Below are positions 12,753-55,056 of a DNA stretch of 64,000 bases, piece after piece. The position numbers and the translations under genes were made by a program. The notes beneath the pieces were generated by a model. That model saw only the letters and a list, made by a program, of their open reading frames with translations. It ran no database searches and was not told the DNA's origin. Position 1 is the stretch's first letter. Each line of letters begins with the position of its first letter. The DNA lies in the NCBI RefSeq assembly GCF_023242475.1, contig NZ_JALJFG010000003.1, positions 186,001-250,000 of the forward strand, in the 5' to 3' direction. The DNA is from Pseudomonas sp. MWU15-20650. GTDB taxonomy: Bacteria; Pseudomonadota; Gammaproteobacteria; Pseudomonadales; Pseudomonadaceae.

Positions 12753-12770
12753 CACACTGCGGTAAAAAAT

Positions 12771-13655
12771 GTGGGAGGGGGCTTGCTCCCGATGGCAGTG
12801 GGTCAGCTGAGAATAAGCTGACTGATCCACCACTATCGGGAGCAAGCCCCCTCCCACACTTGGATCTGCTGTGTGTCTGTTATTGAAGGTGCTGGCTTTG
12901 CCGGCGGCGGTTGCTATTTCAGGCAGTTTGTCCTGACACAGCATGGGAGGGGGCTTGCTCCCGATGACGGTGGGCCAGCTGAGGATAAGCTGACTGATCC
13001 ACCACTATCGGGAGCAAGCCCCCTCCCACACTTTGATCTGCTGTATGTCTGTTATTGAAGGTGCTGGCTTTGCCGGCGGCGGTTGCTATTGCAGGCAGTT
13101 TGTCCTGACACAGCACCGTAAAAAGGTGGGAGGGGGCTTGCTCCCGATGGCGGTGGGTCAGCTGAGGATAAGCTGACTGATCCACCACTATCGGGAGCAA
13201 GCCCCCTCCCACACTTGGATCTGCTGTGTGTCTGTTATTAAAGGTGCTGGCTTTGCCGGCGGCGGTTGCTATTGCAGGCAGTTTGTCCTGACACAGCACC
13301 GTAAAAAGGTGGGAGGGGGCTTGCTCCCGATGACGGAGGGTCAGCTGAGGATAAGCTGACTGATCCCCCACTATCGGGAGCAAGCCCCCTCCCACACTTG
13401 GATCTGCTGTATGTCTGTTATTGAAGGTGCTGGCTTTGCCGGCGGCGATTGCTATTTCAGGCAGTTTGTACTGACACAGCACCGTAAAAAGGTGGGAGGG
13501 GGCTTGCTCCCGATGACGGTGGGTCAGCTGAGGATAAGCTGACTGATCCACCGCTATCGGGAGCAAGCCCCCTCCCACACTTGGTTCTGCTGTGTGTCTG
13601 TTATTGAAGGTGTTGGCTTTGCCGGCGGCGGTTATTATTTCAGGCAGTTTGTACT
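12771..13655. repeat. Tandem array of five REPIN palindromes (period 172-183 bp)
   Basis: Five palindromes begin at 12771, 12943, 13126, 13309 and 13492, each about 88 bp: GTGGGAGGGGGCTTGCTCCC, a centre with CAGCTGA..TCAGCTTA-like inverted bases, then the complement ending CCCCCTCCCACAC. They are separated by a ~95-bp linker that is nearly the same each time (contains CTGTTATTGAAGGTGCTGGC and GGCAGTTTGT.CTGACACAGCA). The last three spacings are exactly 183 bp; the first is 172, lacking ACCGTAAAAAG-type bases. A stray half (CCTCCCACAT) follows at 13675. Copies differ by only a few bases, which points to recent tandem amplification. No gene is expected here. Confidence 0.92.
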
Positions 13656-13799
13656 GGCTGTTCACCCAATTGTCCTCCCACATTTGCTCTGTGGTGTGTC
13701 AGGAAAATCTCATCGATTTGCCCCATTCGGGGAACATCAATCCGTCACACCGGTCGGTTACATAAGTAGCTGCACCGGGTCTCGCGACGAACGCGTGCA

Positions 13800-35854: not shown

Positions 35855-36703
35855 ATGCCGAACCTCCGTCTTGCCGACCTCACCGCCGAAATCGAAGCCA
35901 ACGTGCGCCGCGCGCTGCTGGAAGACATCGGCAGTGGTGACATCACCGCGCAGTTGATCCCGGCCGAACGGCTGGCCAAGGCCACGATCATTACCCGTGA
36001 CGACGCCGTTATCGCCGGCACTGCCTGGGTGGATGCCGTGTTCCGCCAACTGGACCCACGGGTCGCCGTGCATTGGCAGGTGGCCGACGGTGAACGGGTC
36101 AGGCCCAACCAGGCGCTGTTCCACCTCGAAGGTCCGGCACGCTCACTGCTCAGCGGCGAACGCTGCGCGCTGAACTTCCTGCAGTTGCTGTCAGGGGTAG
36201 CGACGCGCGCCCAGTCCCTGGCGGACTTTGTCGCCAGTACCCAGGTCAAGCTGCTGGACACTCGCAAGACATTGCCGGGCCTGCGCATGGCACAGAAGTA
36301 CGCCGTCACCTGTGGCGGTTGCCACAATCACCGCATCGGGTTGTATGACGCGTTCCTGATCAAGGAAAACCATATTGCCGCCTGCGGGGGCATTGCCCAG
36401 GCGATCACAGCGGCCCACAAGATCGCCCCGGGCAAGCCGGTGGAAATCGAAGTGGAAAGCCTGGAGGAATTGCGCGAGGCACTGGCAGCGGGTGCCGACA
36501 TCGTCATGCTGGACGAGCTGAGCCTGGAAGACATGCGCGAAGCCGTACGCCTGAACGCGGGCAAGGCCAAGCTGGAGGCCAGTGGCGGGATCAACGAAAG
36601 CACCTTGCTGCCTATCGCTGAAACCGGAGTGGACTACATCTCCATCGGCGCGATGACCAAGGATGTGAAAGCGGTGGATCTATCGATGCGCCTCAGTATC
36701 TGA
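35855..36703 (+). CDS. nadC: Nicotinate-nucleotide pyrophosphorylase (quinolinate PRTase)
   Basis: Cytosolic enzyme of de novo NAD synthesis: quinolinate plus PRPP gives nicotinate mononucleotide, CO2 and PPi. The 282-residue protein has the family motifs [42 protein letters not shown] and the C-terminal [19 protein letters not shown] 35855 gives the usual start (MPNLRLADL); an upstream in-frame ATG at 35789 is unsupported. Followed by a hairpin. Confidence 0.96.
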
Positions 36704-37052: not shown

Positions 37053-37202
37053 GTTGTTCTCTTAGATCGAGGAATGGGGATGCATCTGGGTCATCAAGGT
37101 TGCGCAGATACGAAAGAGCGAGCATGAATGCCGGCTCGTCTGGCCTTCAGAACCATTCTGGGATCATCTGAAAACATTGCCTTTGAAACAGTGGTGCCTT
37201 TT

Positions 37203-37275
37203 TGCCCGAGACAGGAATCGAACCTGCGACCTTCGCGTTACGAGTGCGCTGCTCTACCAGCTGAGCTACACGGGC
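37203..37275 (-). tRNA. tRNA-Thr (anticodon CGT)
   Basis: The minus strand reads GCCCGTGTAGCTCAG..., with a complete cloverleaf: acceptor GCCCGTG/CTCGGGC (one G-T pair), anticodon loop CTCGTAA with CGT, and T-arm GCAGGTTCGATTCCTGT. CCA is not encoded (TTT follows), so it must be added by CCA-transferase. It lies beside pilA, as in P. aeruginosa, where this tRNA borders the variable pilin cassette. Confidence 0.95.
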
Positions 37276-37339
37276 GGTGGGCTAAAGCTAGCACCGCATT
37301 GGCGATGCAGCAACTGACTCACCTACCGCCCAGCGTCAG

Positions 37340-37753
37340 TTACGCCCCATCGACGCCGCAACCCTTGGCAACGTATTGCGCCTCAGCCGTGGTTGCACAT
37401 GCCCAGCCCGTGGTGGCACTGCGCGTCAATGTGATGGTCTTGCCCAGCACGGGCGCAGGCGCATCGAGTATTTCGCAACGGATGGAGCCGGCACCGGTGG
37501 CTACATCCCCCGCTACGTCGATCTTGCAATTGGCGGTAGGGCTGGTCCCACCGATCAGGGCCAGCGTCGGCACGGTACCCTGGTTGATAACGTCCTCGTA
37601 CCCGGCCTTCAGCGCGGTGATTTCAGCCAACCCCGCCGTGAACTTGGTCTTGGCCTGGTGCTTGGTATACATGGGCAAACCGATGGTGGCCAAAATGCCG
37701 ATGATTGCCACGACGATCAACAACTCGATCAAGGTAAAGCCTTTCTGACGCAT
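37340..37753 (-). CDS. pilA: Type IV major pilin PilA (prepilin)
   Basis: A 137-residue prepilin. The leader MRQKG is cut by PilD before Phe; residues FTLIELLIVVAIIGILATIGLP form the assembly helix, with Glu at +5. Two C-terminal cysteines (about CATTAEAQYVAKGC) would close the D-loop disulfide; two more lie in the middle. ATG 37753 is chosen because it gives the short leader; the frame extends to 37807. It lies between tRNA-Thr and the divergent pilC, but pilB is absent from its usual place. Confidence 0.92.
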   Translation of the reverse strand: MRQKGFTLIELLIVVAIIGILATIGLPMYTKHQAKTKFTAGLAEITALKAGYEDVINQGTVPTLALIGGTSPTANCKIDVAGDVATGAGSIRCEILDAPAPVLGKTITLTRSATTGWACATTAEAQYVAKGCGVDGA

Positions 37754-37955
37754 CACATTCACTCTCCAGAATAGAAACCCAAACAAGGCGCGTCCTGCGC
37801 CCCGCATTGTGCAGCGGCGCCAGTGTACTCATCCGTGAGCAGCCAAACGCACGCAAGAAGCACATTCTGACATTTTATCGCCCACCTACGACCTGTTCGA
37901 GTCCGTCACCTGACTAAGCTATAAAGCTTCGACGACCTGTGTGCGGAAACGTGAC

Positions 37956-39164
37956 ATGAATGACGCTTCAACGATCTACGCCTGGGAAGGCATCAACCGC
38001 AAAGGGCGCAGGGTGTCTGGGCAAACTACTGGCCAAAGCCTGTCGCTGATCAAGGCTCAACTGCGCCAGCAAGGAATCTGCCCCGGCCGTGTGCGCAAAA
38101 AAGCCTCGCACCTGCCAAGCCTTGTTCCACCGATAAAACCCGCCGACATCGCCCTGTTCACCCGCCAGTTGGCAACACTTCTGAAAGCGGGCATACCCCT
38201 GTTGCAAGCCTTCGACATCATTTGCGAAGGCTTCGAAAGCCGGCAGATGCGTGAGCTTATAAAGGGCCTGAAACAGGAGATCGCCGCCGGTAACAACCTG
38301 GCGGCAGCGCTGCGCAAACACCCGCGCTACTTCGATGAGTTGTATTGCCACCTGGTCATCGCCGGTGAACAGGCCGGGGCCCTGGAAACCCTGCTGGAGC
38401 GGCTGGCGGTGCACCAGGAAAAAAGCCAACGGCTCAAGGTGCGAATCAGGAAAGCCATGACTTACCCCATCGCCGTCATCGTGATTGCCTGCCTGGTCAG
38501 CACATTCCTGCTGATCCACGTGGTGCCACAGTTTCAGAACCTGTTTGCCGGGGTCGATGGCCAACTGCCAGGCTTTACCTTGGGCGTGATTGCCTTGTCC
38601 GAATTCCTGCAACAGGCCTGGTGGATGGTAGCGCTGGGCCTGGGGGCAGCCATGGCAGGGTTGCGCCAGGCTTATGGCGCCTCATCTGGTTTTCGTTACT
38701 GGGTGGATACCGGTTTGTTGAACCTGCCGCTGGCAGGCACGCTGCTGAAAAAATCAGCCGTCGCCCGCTACGCGCGTACACTTTCAACCACCTTTGCAGC
38801 GGGTGTGCCCTTGCTGCAGGCGCTGGACTCCGTGGCGGGTGCGACGGACAATGGATTGTTCAAACAGGCGATCAAACATATGCGTCACGATGTCTCCACG
38901 GGCATGCCGTTAAACCAGTCCATGGCCGTCAGCGGCTTGTTTCCTGGCATGGCGATACAGATGACAGCAATCGGCGAAGAGTCCGGCATGCTCGATCGCA
39001 TGCTGGAAAAGGTCGCGAACCACTATGAGGCGGACGTAGACACCCTGGTCGACAACCTCACCAGCTTGATGGAACCGCTGATCATGGTTGTATTGGGCGG
39101 TATTGTCGGCGCGCTGGTGATTGCGATGTACCTGCCGGTCTTTGAACTGGGTACGGCATTTTGA
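37956..39164 (+). CDS. pilC: Type IV pilus inner-membrane platform protein PilC
   Basis: A 402-residue GspF-family protein with two T2SSF repeats (DIALFTRQLATLLKAGIPLLQ and ARYARTLSTTFAAGVPLLQ) and three membrane helices. It anchors the assembly ATPases and moves pilins into the fibre. ATG 37956 is preferred; GTG 37941 is an alternative. In P. aeruginosa it follows pilB, but here only ~200 bp of non-coding DNA separate it from pilA. Its stop overlaps the pilD TTG start. Confidence 0.93.
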   Translation: MNDASTIYAWEGINRKGRRVSGQTTGQSLSLIKAQLRQQGICPGRVRKKASHLPSLVPPIKPADIALFTRQLATLLKAGIPLLQAFDIICEGFESRQMRELIKGLKQEIAAGNNLAAALRKHPRYFDELYCHLVIAGEQAGALETLLERLAVHQEKSQRLKVRIRKAMTYPIAVIVIACLVSTFLLIHVVPQFQNLFAGVDGQLPGFTLGVIALSEFLQQAWWMVALGLGAAMAGLRQAYGASSGFRYWVDTGLLNLPLAGTLLKKSAVARYARTLSTTFAAGVPLLQALDSVAGATDNGLFKQAIKHMRHDVSTGMPLNQSMAVSGLFPGMAIQMTAIGEESGMLDRMLEKVANHYEADVDTLVDNLTSLMEPLIMVVLGGIVGALVIAMYLPVFELGTAF

Positions 39165-40027
39165 GCTTGCTGCTGAGTGAACACCCCTGGGTATTTGTCG
39201 GTATGGCGCTGGTGCTGGGCCTGATCGTCGGTAGCTTTCTCAATGTGCTGGTGTGGCGCCTGCCGAAAATGCTCGAGCGGGAGTGGCGAGCCCAGGCCCA
39301 TGAGATCCTCGGCTTGCCCGCCGAGCCTGCGGGGCCGGCCTACAACCTGATGCGCCCCAATTCCTGCTGCCCGCATTGTGACCACCCGATTCGCCCCTGG
39401 GAAAATATCCCCGTACTCAGCTACCTGATACTCAGGGGGCGTTGCGCCCATTGCAGGGAACCTATCAGCCCCCGTTACCCCTTCACCGAACTGGCGTGCG
39501 CGCTGATCTGCGCCACGGTTGCCTGGCACTTCGGTTTTGGCTGGCAAGCCGGCGCGGTGATGGTGTTGAGCTGGGGGTTACTGGCCATGAGCCTGATCGA
39601 CGCGGACCATCAACTGCTGCCCGATGTGCTGGTGCTGCCGTTGCTGTGGCTGGGGCTCATCCTTAACAGCGCAGACATGCTGGCGACACTGCCCTCTGCG
39701 CTGTGGGGCGCGGTCATTGGATACATGAGCCTATGGAGCGTGTTCTGGCTGTTCAAGCTGGTCACCGGCAAGGATGGCATGGGCCATGGCGACTTCAAGT
39801 TGTTGGCACTGCTCGGTGCCTGGGGTGGCTGGCAGATTCTGCCGATGACACTGCTGATGGCCTCACTGTTCGGCGTGTTTGCCGGGCTGCTCCTGATGCG
39901 CTTGCGCAAGGCCCAGGCGTCGACACCCATGCCGTTTGGACCTTATCTGGCGATTGCCGGCTGGATTGCATTGCTCTGGGGTGGTCAAATAACCGACTTC
40001 TATTTGCAGTCTGTCGGTTTCAGATGA
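39161..40027 (+). CDS. pilD: Prepilin peptidase/N-methyltransferase PilD
   Basis: Inner-membrane aspartic protease, 288 residues, that cleaves and N-methylates prepilins and type II secretion pseudopilins. It has the cytosolic zinc tetra-cysteine region (CCPHCDHP and CAHCREP) and the catalytic aspartates in [11 protein letters not shown] and the GxGD-type site [11 protein letters not shown]. The start appears to be TTG 39161, overlapping the pilC stop (TTGA). The stop overlaps coaE by 4 nt. Confidence 0.94.
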
Positions 40028-40647
40028 CCATTCCTGTTGCAACACCCTGGATCCTTGGCCTCACGGGCGGCATCGGCAGCGGTAAAAGCGCTGCTGCCGA
40101 GCACTTTACCCGCCTGGGCGTCGACCTGGTCGATGCCGACCATGCCGCCCGCTGGGTCGTTGAGCCTGGCCGGCCGGCACTGGCGCGTATTGCCGAGCAT
40201 TTCGGCAGTCACGTGCTGCAGCCTGACGGCCAGCTGGACCGCGCCGCGTTGCGCAAACTGATATTTGAAGTACCCGAGGAACGTCGCTGGCTTGAAGCCT
40301 TGCTACACCCGTTGATTGGCGAAGAGATCCGCAGCCACTTGGCGCGTGCACGGTCGCCTTACGCGATCCTGGTGTCACCCCTGCTGATCGAGTCAGGCCA
40401 ATACAGCCTGACCCAGCGCATCCTGGTGATCGACGTGCCGCAATCGCTGCAGATTCAGCGTACCCTGCAGCGCGACGGCATCAGCGAACACCAGGTGCAG
40501 GCAATTCTCAAGGCCCAGTCCAGCCGCGAAGACCGCCTGAACCATGCCGATGACGTACTGGTCAATGACCAGGACCTTGCCTGGCTGCACAGCGAGGTCG
40601 AGCGACTGCACCACTTTTACCTTACTTTGCGTGGAGGCCGATCATGA
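40024..40647 (+). CDS. coaE: Dephospho-CoA kinase
   Basis: Last enzyme of coenzyme A synthesis, 207 residues, phosphorylating the ribose 3'-OH of dephospho-CoA. P-loop GGIGSGKS at residues 15-22; the [13 protein letters not shown] motif and the VSPLLIESG segment are typical. ATG 40024 overlaps the pilD stop (ATGA), so translation is coupled in the pilC-pilD-coaE-yacG unit. Confidence 0.95.
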
Positions 40648-40844
40648 GCCAACCCTTGACCGTCGAATGCCCAACCTGCGGCGCACCCGTGGAATGGAAA
40701 GCGGCCAACCTCAACCGGCCGTTCTGTTCGGACCGTTGCAAACTCATCGACCTGGGTGCCTGGGCCGCTGAAGAACACAAGATCCCCGTGGCCCCGGATG
40801 CCGAAGACGAACTGTTTTCCGAAGACCTGCCACAGCGCCACTAA
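40644..40844 (+). CDS. yacG: DNA gyrase inhibitor YacG (zinc-binding)
   Basis: A 66-residue protein with a four-cysteine zinc site: [10 protein letters not shown] near the N-terminus and [12 protein letters not shown]. YacG binds GyrB and blocks its activity in studied species. ATG 40644 overlaps the coaE stop by 4 nt. Its stop overlaps that of the convergent small gene by three bases. The acidic C-terminus ([13 protein letters not shown]) is usual for the family. Confidence 0.94.
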
Positions 40845-52184: not shown

Positions 52185-52586
52185 TCACTGCCCCCAGCAC
52201 GTCTTGCGCGACATCTCAGGCTGCGCCCCGGGATTGCTGCGCATACCGGTGCTGGTCAAGCTGAAGGTCCCACAGGCGTCGCTCGCCATGACTGAGTTCG
52301 CGGCAGGCGTCGCTAGCAGGTCAAAATCCTGGGGGTTTAATACAACACTGATTCTATAGTGATCATTGCCCGCGCTGATGCCGCCTGCATCAATAAAAGT
52401 GCCGTTCCTCGTGTAAAAACGCTCCAGATGCTGAGCTTGTTCCGTCAACAACGCGACGACTTGCGCGCGATACACCTTTTTTACCTGGCCGGTGTACCCG
52501 GGATAAGCGATCCCTGCCAGCAACGCGATGATCGCCACGACGATCAGTAGCTCGATCAGGGTAAACCCCTGGCTGTCCGTGCCCAT
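52185..52586 (-). CDS. pilE: Type IV minor pilin PilE-like
   Basis: A 133-residue prepilin with leader MGTDSQG cut before Phe (GFTLIELLIVVAIIALLAGIAYPGY). Two cysteines near the end (DACGTF and KTCWGQ) suggest a disulfide loop, as in PilE-type minor pilins. ATG 52586 gives the short leader; the frame extends far upstream but that part is inside pilX. It is last in the pilV-pilW-pilX-pilE set. PilE naming rests on order and on the C-terminus. Confidence 0.8.
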   Translation of the reverse strand: MGTDSQGFTLIELLIVVAIIALLAGIAYPGYTGQVKKVYRAQVVALLTEQAQHLERFYTRNGTFIDAGGISAGNDHYRISVVLNPQDFDLLATPAANSVMASDACGTFSLTSTGMRSNPGAQPEMSRKTCWGQ

Positions 52587-52597
52587 CCAATTGCTCC

Positions 52598-53128
52598 TTA
52601 TTGAAGTTGCCGCCATAGAATCCGCCGAAACCTCACGCTGCCCTCCTCGTCTACCCGCGCATAGACGGTCTCCAGCACCGTGCGCGATTGGCCACCGAGC
52701 CCGACGGCAGTCACCCGAAACAGCGCAGCCGGGGCATGCGAGGGCAAATGAACCAGCCCGGTACCACCCCCCAGGAATTGAACGCCGTAGAACCCACCCT
52801 TCATGGCCACCCACGTGATCGCCGAGACCGGGTTCACCCCGGCACCCACCAACGAAAAGGCTTCATCGGGGGGCGCACAAGTGATGATTGAGTGACACAT
52901 GGGCAACGTGCGACCAACCGTCTGTACCGCCGACTCCCCCAATCTCAGGCCGCTTTCGGCACGTTGAAACGATTGGTTGCGTTGCCACAGGCTGCCGGCG
53001 TTTTTTTGCTGGGATATCGCGCCCTGCAATGCTGACAACCCCAGCAGTGACAACAGCAGCAGGAATACCAGGCTGACCAGCAACACCATGCCCACCTGCC
53101 GCACATGAATATCCTCACACTTGGTCAT
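52598..53128 (-). CDS. pilX: Type IV pilus assembly protein PilX-like
   Basis: A 176-residue PilX N-domain protein: short polar leader, then VGMVLLVSLVFLLLLSLLGLS as the assembly helix. Cys residues occur at MCHSIITC. The family is diagnostic of minor pilins in the pilVWX cluster. The gene ends 11 bp before pilE and starts 5 bp after pilW; the operon is tight. Confidence 0.85.
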   Translation of the reverse strand: MTKCEDIHVRQVGMVLLVSLVFLLLLSLLGLSALQGAISQQKNAGSLWQRNQSFQRAESGLRLGESAVQTVGRTLPMCHSIITCAPPDEAFSLVGAGVNPVSAITWVAMKGGFYGVQFLGGGTGLVHLPSHAPAALFRVTAVGLGGQSRTVLETVYARVDEEGSVRFRRILWRQLQ

Positions 53129-53133
53129 CGGCC

Positions 53134-53838
53134 CTACCCCAGCCGATTTCGCAGCGCCGCCACGACACTGTAGGTCTGATCTTTCACCCGCCCTGTCGGG
53201 TCTTGCAATGTCATGAGAATACGCACGCTACGTATCAACGCTTCGTCGAATGGGTTGCTGTCGTAACGCACCACCTCCATTGATGCCGGTTTCGCCGCCA
53301 TGCCAAAACTGATCTCGAATGCCCCCACGTTTTCGATCAGTACGGCTTTGGCCGGTGCTGCCGGCGTACTGACCTTCACCTGCCCCGACTCGTAGGTGTA
53401 GGTGAGCTGGCGTAGGGCAAAACGGATCTGCCCAGGGAGAGGCGGGTATGTTCCCTCATAAGCCTGGGCGGCGGTCTTGCAGTCCGACAGTATCGTCCAG
53501 TCAGGCTTGCCGGCACCGTCGCCGACGTTCGCGGTAACCAATGTCAAAGCCTTTGTATTCCCCGACGCCACCCAGCTCACCGGCCGGTGAAAAGCGGCAG
53601 GAGCGCCCTCGATAAATGCCACATCCAGACAACCCAACATGCCCGCCTGGCGGATATCCTGCGTCATCTTGCTCAAGACGAACCGTGCATCATCCTGCAG
53701 CGTCATGGCGGCCTGCTGGCTGGCGTGGGTCAATCGCGAACTGATCAATACCTGGCTCGCCCCCAGTACCAGCAGCAGCCCGACGGCCAACGCCAGCAAC
53801 AATTCCACCAGGCTGAACCCCCATGCACGACGGCTCAT
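53134..53838 (-). CDS. pilW: Type IV pilus assembly protein PilW-like
   Basis: A 234-residue prepilin with leader MSRRAWG cut before FSLVELLLALAVGLLLVLGAS, matching PilW. Its ATG overlaps the pilV stop by 4 nt. PilW helps prime pilus assembly with PilX and PilY1; no pilY1 gene is seen behind pilX here. Confidence 0.85.
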   Translation of the reverse strand: MSRRAWGFSLVELLLALAVGLLLVLGASQVLISSRLTHASQQAAMTLQDDARFVLSKMTQDIRQAGMLGCLDVAFIEGAPAAFHRPVSWVASGNTKALTLVTANVGDGAGKPDWTILSDCKTAAQAYEGTYPPLPGQIRFALRQLTYTYESGQVKVSTPAAPAKAVLIENVGAFEISFGMAAKPASMEVVRYDSNPFDEALIRSVRILMTLQDPTGRVKDQTYSVVAALRNRLG

Positions 53839-54320
53839 TGCAACGCTCCCGGCTCATTGGCGATGCGCCCGACCAGGGTGAAGGTTTCCTGTGCTGCCGG
53901 GCTGTTTACGACCCTCGCATTCTCCCAACTGATGCTGATGGTGACCTCCGGCCCGCTGACCGCCACGGCCCCTTTGGCCCCTTCGCCAGCAAAACCGATG
54001 ATATTGGCCTCAAAGTCATGCAGGTCCACATCACGTACGCTGGCGGTCGAAGTGCTAGGCGGCGCCTGTTCGGATTTACCCCATGAGTAATCAGCGCCTG
54101 TGTTGGCGCGGATTCGGTCGAGCATGTCGTAGGCGATAAAACTGGCCTGGCTGGTCATCCTGGCGCTGTCGGTGTACTTGAGCGCATTGAGCTGGACCAC
54201 CGCCGCCCCCAGGAGGCCGATGGCCAGGATCAACAACGCAACCAGCACCTCGACCAGGGTCATGCCAGATTGGTACCGATAAAAAGCGCGCAAATAAAAT
54301 GTAGGTGGGCTGGCAAGCAT
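53835..54320 (-). CDS. pilV: Type IV pilus modification/minor pilin PilV-like
   Basis: A prepilin with the cleavage region YQSG/MTLVEVLVALLILAIGLLGAA, typical of PilV. From ATG 54320 the product is 161 residues with a 19-residue leader; TTG 54293 (10-residue leader) is an equally likely start and better matches the normal leader length. The frame continues to 54545, but that part is unlikely to be translated. It is first of the pilV-pilW-pilX-pilE operon and divergent from fimT. Confidence 0.8.
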   Translation of the reverse strand: MLASPPTFYLRAFYRYQSGMTLVEVLVALLILAIGLLGAAVVQLNALKYTDSARMTSQASFIAYDMLDRIRANTGADYSWGKSEQAPPSTSTASVRDVDLHDFEANIIGFAGEGAKGAVAVSGPEVTISISWENARVVNSPAAQETFTLVGRIANEPGALQ

Positions 54321-54525
54321 TACCGTCGTCATCCATGTCGAAGGCCAGGGAAAGCAGGTAAAACCTGCCGTACGACCCAAGACTAGCGCCGGTTTTTGGT
54401 CGGCGCTGCGCCCGGAACAAAGGGAAATACTTTGGACAAAAAGGCCAGCATCCAGCGCCAAGGCCCACACGCTATACCTATACCGGCTGTTTGAAGATCG
54501 ACTCGCGTCCACGGAGGGAGCGCAC

Positions 54526-55056
54526 ATGACACAACGAGGGTTCACCCTGATCGAATTACTGCTGGGGCTGATCGTGACCGGCTTCCTGGCGCAGCTGGCG
54601 GTACCCGGCTTCCAGGGATTGCTCGAGTCACAGCAACGCCAAGGCGCAGCCCAGTCCTTGGCCGCCGGGCTGCGCTACGCTCGCTCAGAGGCCATTGCAC
54701 ACAATCGCGCCGTGATCATTCATGCGCGGGACGAGGACTGGAGCCTGGGCTGGCGAGTGATACTGGATGCCAGCGGGCGTGGCCATCTGGACGATGACAA
54801 TCCGGTACTGTTGGAGCAGCAAGGTAACCGGCGCGTTCCGATTGCGGGCAACGGGCCAGTCAAGGATCAAGTGCGTTTCAACGGATTGGGAGAGCCCGTC
54901 TTCACGGGTGGAGGGTTCCGCGCGGGCACCGTACATGTGTGCGATGCGAACCAGGCACAAAGCCTGTATCAGGTCGTGCTGGCCCCCAGCGGACGCATCA
55001 GCCTGCGCAGTGATAAGACCGAACAGGCATTATGCCGAGGCTCTTCCAGCACGTAG
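54526..55056 (+). CDS. fimT: FimT/GspH-type minor pilin
   Basis: A 176-residue prepilin with leader MTQRG cut before FTLIELLLGLIVTGFLAQLA and a GspH/FimT domain (SLAAGLRYARSEAIAHNRAV). The start follows GGAGGGAGCGCAC. It is alone on the plus strand, divergent from pilV, whereas fimT and fimU of PAO1 face the same way as the rest of the minor pilin operon. Whether it is FimT or FimU cannot be decided. Confidence 0.8.
   Translation: MTQRGFTLIELLLGLIVTGFLAQLAVPGFQGLLESQQRQGAAQSLAAGLRYARSEAIAHNRAVIIHARDEDWSLGWRVILDASGRGHLDDDNPVLLEQQGNRRVPIAGNGPVKDQVRFNGLGEPVFTGGGFRAGTVHVCDANQAQSLYQVVLAPSGRISLRSDKTEQALCRGSSST

Follow-up and report, generated by a model that had tools for sequence, protein, structure and literature searches.

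How can a genome hold the genes of a type IV pilus in their usual arrangement without the gene for the ATPase that extends it? The question arises at one locus of the window, by which we mean the whole 64,000-nucleotide stretch of DNA analyzed here (C23:186001-250000 of a 6.08-Mb assembly in 86 contigs, rated 100% complete): pilA and pilC lie divergently on either side of a short gap, in the place expected of pilB. The features of this cluster are listed below.

35855..36703, plus strand: nadC, conserved neighbor (PF01729 and PF02749)
37203..37275, minus strand: tRNA-Thr (cgt), called by ARAGORN
37340..37753, minus strand: pilA, major pilin, 137 aa (PF00114, 64.6 bits; PF07963)
37754..37955, no strand: pilA-pilC intergenic gap, expected place of pilB (tblastn, six-frame translation)
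37956..39164, plus strand: pilC, inner-membrane platform protein, 402 aa (PF00482, two stretches)
39161..40027, plus strand: pilD, prepilin peptidase (PF01478, 87.7 bits; PF06750, 113.5 bits)
40024..40647, plus strand: coaE, conserved neighbor (TIGR00152)
40644..40844, plus strand: yacG, conserved neighbor (PF03884)

The first codon of pilA (MRQKGFTLIELL) ends at 37753 on the minus strand and the pilC ATG stands at 37956, so the gap measures 202 bp, where PilB would require about 1.7 kb. The cluster is otherwise standard (nadC / tRNA-Thr(cgt) / pilA(-) / pilC / pilD / coaE / yacG); P. aeruginosa has the same gene order, but with pilB. A first-pass annotation had described pilB as missing here and the gap as holding neither a frame nor a recognizable pilB remnant. 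The first two points stand: tblastn with one Pseudomonas PilB at E<=10 returned zero matches in window 37201-38100, and the longest open stretch in the six-frame translation of the 202 bp is about 53 codons. The third does not, as the leader of pilB appears to be kept in this gap and its start in the first codons of pilC, and coding scars persist in some relatives (both described below). With pilB gone from the gap, an extension ATPase, if there is one, must come from elsewhere, just as the annotation had said.

The neighbor nadC is found in the same order in a P. veronii record and at loci L135 and L136. The P. veronii T1 record (L343, NZ_CP142042.1) is a linear 189-kb sequence that is labeled a plasmid, resembles a chromosome segment, and carries nadC, pilA, coaE, and yacG; a search for plasmids with this region returned no other record; an O-antigen ligase family gene lies beside its pilA.

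ATPases available in the genome

A genome-wide search with the T2SSE profile returned four proteins: a GspE, which scores 733 bits against TIGR02533 (cut-off 630); a PilT, at 470 bits against TIGR01420 (cut-off 319); a TadA/CpaF-like protein, whose 358 bits lie below the TIGR03819 cut-off of 373; and a TfpB-type protein encoded on its own. None of the four is a PilB (TIGR02538, cut-off 675.65 bits). The first-pass annotation had proposed a genome search for PilB, PilT, PilQ, and PilM to PilP, and had named a complete pilB elsewhere as the finding that would contradict it; no PilB was found, four other proteins being returned in its stead, and the PilT and PilM to PilQ families are present. Set against the classical type IVa pilus, the genome has the major pilin, PilC, and PilD (PF00114, PF00482, and PF01478) and a PilT above its cut-off, and no PilB extension ATPase. 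We would liken the system to a type IVa pilus, but one that falls short of the family on PilB.

The TfpB-type protein (L002, 570 aa) scores 831.4 bits against the TfpB model NF053534, and we call it TfpB-type because this score misses the curated cut-off of 850 by 19 bits. Its scores against PilB (498.5 bits to TIGR02538) and GspE (497 bits) fall well below the respective cut-offs of 675.65 and 630, which places it outside PilB. Over its whole length it is nearer to TfpB than to PilB or GspE: it is 69-70% identical, over 584-586 columns, to the TfpBs of two PilB-positive members of the genus, and 41% and 47% identical to PilB and GspE, respectively, over the ATPase part only. The catalytic motifs are intact (Walker A, Walker B, Asp and His boxes, and two CxxC), and 28 other TfpB proteins of the genus carry the same boxes and CxxC pairs, five of them with slight variation in the His box. 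An SPFH/Band 7 (stomatin-like) gene lies directly 3' of tfpB in this genome (L002 2733-3653), and one lies near tfpB at 2 of 10 loci of the genus with high TfpB scores (1.5-kb flanks).

Repeated loss of pilB in the genus

We searched the same 298 genomes of the genus for PilB, TfpB, PilC, the PilT/PilU family, and PilQ. PilB passes its cut-off in 167 of the 298, leaving 131 without it, while PilC (E<=1e-70) is found in 294, the PilT/PilU family (E<=1e-88) in 291, PilQ (E<=1e-90) in 263, and TfpB (E<=1e-200) in 286, with 206 passing the curated 850-bit cut-off. The remaining 12 genomes for TfpB comprise nine with a long match of 630-665 bits, one with a partial match of 668 bits (G076), one with TfpB in two adjacent pieces (G080), and one that is 86% complete and gave no TfpB match (G218). 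Five of the 131 genomes were set aside, namely two incomplete assemblies (G075 and G223), one with a disrupted pilB (G177), and two whose pilC is broken up and whose PilB-like match is partial (G034 and G080), so that 126 PilB-less genomes remain. Among these, TfpB is matched in 125 (including the partial match of G076), PilC at E<=1e-70 in 124 (G110 and G174 have fragments, and G110 is a single-contig genome with a truncated PilC), and the PilT family in 120. TfpB reaches E<=1e-200 in all 167 PilB-positive genomes as well, and it is therefore the older partner left behind, not a replacement acquired upon the loss of PilB. In two genomes (G003 and G117) that have PilC, TfpB is the only GspE/PilB-like ATPase at E<=1e-60. 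TfpB scores fall in many PilB-less genomes. At ten PilB-less loci with low TfpB scores (L066 and L068-L076), the match ends near position 483 of 584 in nine, whose C-terminal part has diverged, and runs to 582 in L066.

The arrangement seen in the window recurs. Among the best 80 of at least 577 named PilC loci, a PilB match at E<=1e-50 is present in 72, mostly directly 5' of pilC; of the eight without PilB, five are from Pseudomonas and have pilA head to head with pilC. The comparison with relatives that the first-pass annotation had called for bears this out: at 59 of 60 loci from genomes without PilB over the cut-off (the window included), pilA adjoins and diverges from pilC with no full pilB, and the 60th (L112) retains a disrupted pilB. 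An rpoB tree built by a quick method from 80 genomes drawn from the 298 (46 PilB-less and 34 PilB-positive) requires 11 changes of PilB state, of which starred branches force at least 7; shuffles need 26 on average. Taken alone, the tree fits gain as well as loss. The window's clade, 16 genomes on this tree, forms one PilB-less clade with top support inside PilB-positive lineages.

Judged from the sequences, the direction is deletion, because scars of pilB survive and because PilB is present at 72 of the best 80 PilC loci, most of them outside Pseudomonas. The pilA-pilC gap of G088 holds pieces matching PilB residues 1-31 and 479-566, and the gaps of G274 and G204 match residues 479-502 and 480-516 (E 1e-6 to 1e-14 and 3e-8 for these clear scars). 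Weaker scars are found in G264 (residues 478-498, E 0.003) and G128 (467-495, E 0.01); a match in G151 (544-566) is at background level (E 0.12) but in the expected spot directly before pilC, and the gap ends of G243, G277, G232, and G021 look, on inspection by eye, like the 3' end of the pilB frame.

Loss of PilB goes along with lack of a second PilT/PilU-family ATPase: at least two matches to this family are present in 166 of the 167 PilB-positive genomes (the exception is G214) versus 7 of the 131 others (Fisher p ~4e-74, uncorrected for shared ancestry). Of these seven, four (G034, G075, G080, and G177) belong to the genomes set aside, leaving G140, G264, and G274. The last two, near relatives, keep the second ATPase beside scraps of pilB, which suggests that pilB goes before the second ATPase does. 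Our guess is that the second gene encodes PilU; the notion that it is simply a pilU beside pilT was rejected, as four pilT loci of PilB-positive genomes have no second match within 1.5 kb.

The leader before pilC and the remaining machinery

The 46 bp at 37910-37955, read on into the first codons of pilC, correspond to the pilB leader and start in PilB-positive relatives, which adds two features to those listed above.

37910..37955, plus strand: putative promoter-like box CTGACTAAGCTATAAA and leader of the former pilB, now 5' of pilC (alignment with the pilB leaders of nine PilB-positive relatives)
37956..37964, plus strand: ATG AAT GAC, start of pilC, probably derived from codons 1-3 of pilB (sequence comparison)

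Across 29 loci of the window's clade, the 55 bases 5' of pilC align to the pilB leaders of nine PilB-positive genomes with a mean score of 9.9 (range -1 to 19.5), versus -3.5 to the sequence that normally precedes pilC and -4.8 (sd 3.4) for mononucleotide shuffles; 1 of 5220 shuffles reached the mean true score, and 773 reached the lowest true score. (One of the 30 clade loci, L060, was excluded from the leader and sigma54 counts, its alignment beginning off the pilC start.) The protein starts agree: pilC begins MND in 15 of the 29 clade members, with close variants in most others, and pilB begins MND in 9 of 9 PilB-positive genomes, whose own pilC begins MAV or MAT. At the 28 other PilB-less loci compared (L112 and L132 excluded), no candidate pilC start carries the pilB leader, and several retain the pilC leader. 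By this comparison the window's clade has a deletion of its own, which left pilC under pilB's old control region; pilC there would have inherited pilB's promoter-like box, its leader, and probably its start codon, and pilC and pilD are predicted to be expressed from that region. The same count of 0 of 28 led us to reject a leader fusion common to all PilB-less lineages.

On the pilA side, a sigma54-like site about 57-58 bases 5' of the gene, allowing at most 2 mismatches, is present at 8 of 9 PilB-positive loci (the pilA position of the exception, G070, is probably misplaced) and at all nine of the other PilB-less loci compared, chosen for short branches or scars. It is found at none of the 29 loci of the window's clade. 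This comparison was made by position, with 6 of 500 shuffles reaching 2 or fewer mismatches; a pattern scan over the whole window gave matches at chance level.

The PilM, PilN, PilO, PilP, and PilQ families are all found in this genome, in altered form (L321 5220-8814, C18): the 227-aa PilM is half length and covers 168 of the 340 positions of its profile, a single 323-aa protein combines PilO with PilP, and PilQ is 460 aa. It is the most reduced set among the loci compared. All nine PilB-positive loci have full PilM to PilQ, with PilQ of 691-705 aa, and PilQ at 11 other PilB-less loci is 680-692 aa in eight and 573-587 aa in three; one of these 11 (G243) has a short PilM frame. Genus-wide, PilQ goes unmatched at E<=1e-90 in 35 genomes, of which 34 lack PilB and one has it (G069); 15 of the 35 were named by elimination.

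What remains is nonetheless under constraint. Pairwise dN/dS (NG86) in PilB-less pairs is 0.08-0.15 for pilC (13 pairs), 0.07-0.24 for pilA (12 pairs; 0.07-0.15 in 8 clade pairs), and 0.04-0.09 for tfpB (5 pairs outside the window's clade), and we found no stop codons in pilA, pilC, or tfpB of these pairs: all three genes are under purifying selection. Five PilB-positive pairs gave 0.04-0.06 for pilC, about half the PilB-less values, 0.10 for pilA (two pairs), and 0.02-0.07 for tfpB, for which the alignments of three genomes extended beyond the stop codon. The window also holds a set of minor pilins.

52185..52814, minus strand: pilE-like minor pilin, true start inside the ORF (PF16732, 52.3 bits)
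52598..53128, minus strand: pilX-like minor pilin (PF14341, 32.7 bits)
53134..53838, minus strand: pilW-like minor pilin (N_methyl PF07963; named from gene order)
53835..54290, minus strand: pilV minor pilin, 5' end approximate (TIGR02523, 93.7 bits, cut-off 52.2)
54526..55056, plus strand: fimT/fimU-like minor pilin (PF12019, 68.4 bits)

The pilE-like protein matches ComP_DUS, the family of the DNA uptake sequence receptor, and within this set (52185-55056) there is no room for pilY1 between pilX and pilE.

Candidate explanations and known systems

The reading that we favor, with a probability of roughly 0.6, is an in-place deletion of pilB with leader fusion, after which the remaining machine stayed under selection, most likely as a small pilus or uptake pseudopilus with TfpB for extension and PilT for retraction. 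pilB would have been deleted in place from a standard pilA/pilBCD cluster; the deletion would have placed the pilC frame behind pilB's promoter-like box and leader, and probably fused it to the pilB start codon, leaving pilC and pilD to be read from pilB's former control region; and selection would maintain what remained. Extension would most likely be driven by the stand-alone TfpB-type ATPase encoded elsewhere and retraction by PilT. The product would be a type IV pilus of reduced form or a short pseudopilus for the uptake of DNA. We lean this way because leftovers would hardly be expected to remain open and conserved once PilB is gone, and because TfpB is the only near-universal extension-type ATPase that we see and the sole GspE/PilB-like one in G003 and G117. 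Between the two options that the first-pass annotation had left, an extension ATPase encoded elsewhere or classical pili that are not built, the evidence thus favors the former, with TfpB, another extension motor, in place of PilB, the latter being the less likely of the two.

Several observations pull the other way: the short PilQ and PilM and the PilO-PilP fusion, the lost sigma54-like site before pilA in the window's clade, the truncated PilC of G110, the 34 PilB-less genomes with PilQ unmatched, the higher pilC dN/dS, and the falling TfpB scores all count against a TfpB-run pilus. The first four of these also fit a slowly decaying relict, in which loss of PilB disabled extension, pili are no longer built, and the genes persist through inertia or for side roles such as the processing of type II and minor pseudopilins by PilD. 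So does P. putida WCS358, for which a passage in PMC4509608 reports a pilA, pilC, pilD cluster without pilB, no PilB ortholog, and no detectable pili; its gap and PilB-less genome resemble ours, and the passage takes the lack of pilB as the reason for the lack of pili and does not mention TfpB. A relict should carry many stops, however, and the open, selected pilA, pilC, and tfpB of PilB-less pairs, together with the persistence of PilC and the PilT family in 124 and 120 of 126 PilB-less genomes, make us regard decay as unlikely, if a serious contender.

It is far less probable that the work of PilB is done by GspE of type II secretion or by the TadA/CpaF-like protein: both are encoded in this genome, but gspE sits between its own secretin and T2SSF genes, and G003 and G117 have PilC and TfpB with neither a GspE-like ATPase at E<=1e-60 nor a second T2SSF protein at E<=1e-40. 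That pilB is present and was missed, through divergence or a gap between the 86 contigs, is scarcely credible given the completeness rating, a T2SSE profile that reaches from PilT to CpaF yet recovers no PilB, and the 16 of 16 clade genomes on the rpoB tree, several of them single-contig, without PilB over the cut-off.

For the genus at large, we put at even odds a scenario in which an ancestral machine with two extension motors (PilB and TfpB) and two PilT/PilU-family ATPases switched many times, pilB being deleted first and the second PilT/PilU-family ATPase lost afterwards, to a stable TfpB plus PilT machine; some lineages would then have shrunk PilQ, PilM, and PilO-PilP stepwise towards a minimal uptake pseudopilus, and more than 100 natural pilB knock-outs would have TfpB as their sole motor. 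The DNA-uptake pili of E. coli (Hof) and Haemophilus (Com) have a short secretin and small alignment proteins and keep a PilB/HofB-type ATPase. The genome studied here is like them in its secretin and alignment proteins and differs in having TfpB and PilT instead of that ATPase.

Extension of type IV pili has been ascribed to one highly conserved motor, PilB, according to PMC8213720, which describes TfpB as driving pilus extension in A. baylyi. There, either motor alone allows transformation, a pilB mutant still transforming (PMC8213720; PMC11656802); a pilB pilT mutant is as piliated as its pilT parent, a double motor mutant makes no pili, and with pilT intact pili are seen in neither single motor mutant (PMC8213720). 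Neither motor makes up for the other when overexpressed, and overexpression of tfpB in particular fails to restore transformation to the pilB mutant (PMC8213720). For the favored reading, the transformation of the pilB mutant and the piliation of the pilB pilT mutant count in its support, and the bald single mutants and the failed rescue by tfpB count against it. The same source (Ellison 2021) reports P. fluorescens A506 as the one exception among 16 TfpB-bearing species, with type IV pilus parts and only tfpB, and proposes TfpB as its sole motor, data still being needed. Our genome resembles A506 in having the pilus components with tfpB and without pilB; the A506 account concerns a single exception, and the present analysis covers 126 PilB-less genomes among 298, with repeated loss, scars, the leader fusion, the linked lack of a second ATPase, and selection tests.

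Two further reports touch on the subject: an isolate of P. fluorescens subclade III lacks pilB and several other pil genes (PMC4672498), and mushroom pseudomonads have incomplete pil gene sets (PMC7696170). By the wording of the former, other subclade III strains are annotated with pilB, which counts against the present picture unless the label was put on TfpB or GspE by an annotation pipeline. The WCS358 gap and TfpB as sole motor in A506 are thus already in print; in open-licence PubMed Central we found no account of repeated pilB loss, its scars, the leader fusion, or the link to the second PilT-family ATPase.

If the favored reading is true, roughly four out of every ten species sampled in the genus run their machine on TfpB alone, which bears on the open question of whether TfpB can be a sole motor and offers a comparative system for the contributions of PilB, TfpB, and the second PilT-family ATPase. 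Such bacteria would be natural test cases for a pilus run by an alternative motor, and the matter bears on pili and DNA uptake in the fluorescens and putida groups, which figure in soil work, biocontrol, and biotechnology.

We note in addition a tandem array elsewhere in the window (12765-13656), with a period of 183 bp and about four copies 95% identical to one another behind a variant copy; each 183-bp unit is bounded at both ends by inverted copies of TGGGAGGGGGCTTGC.
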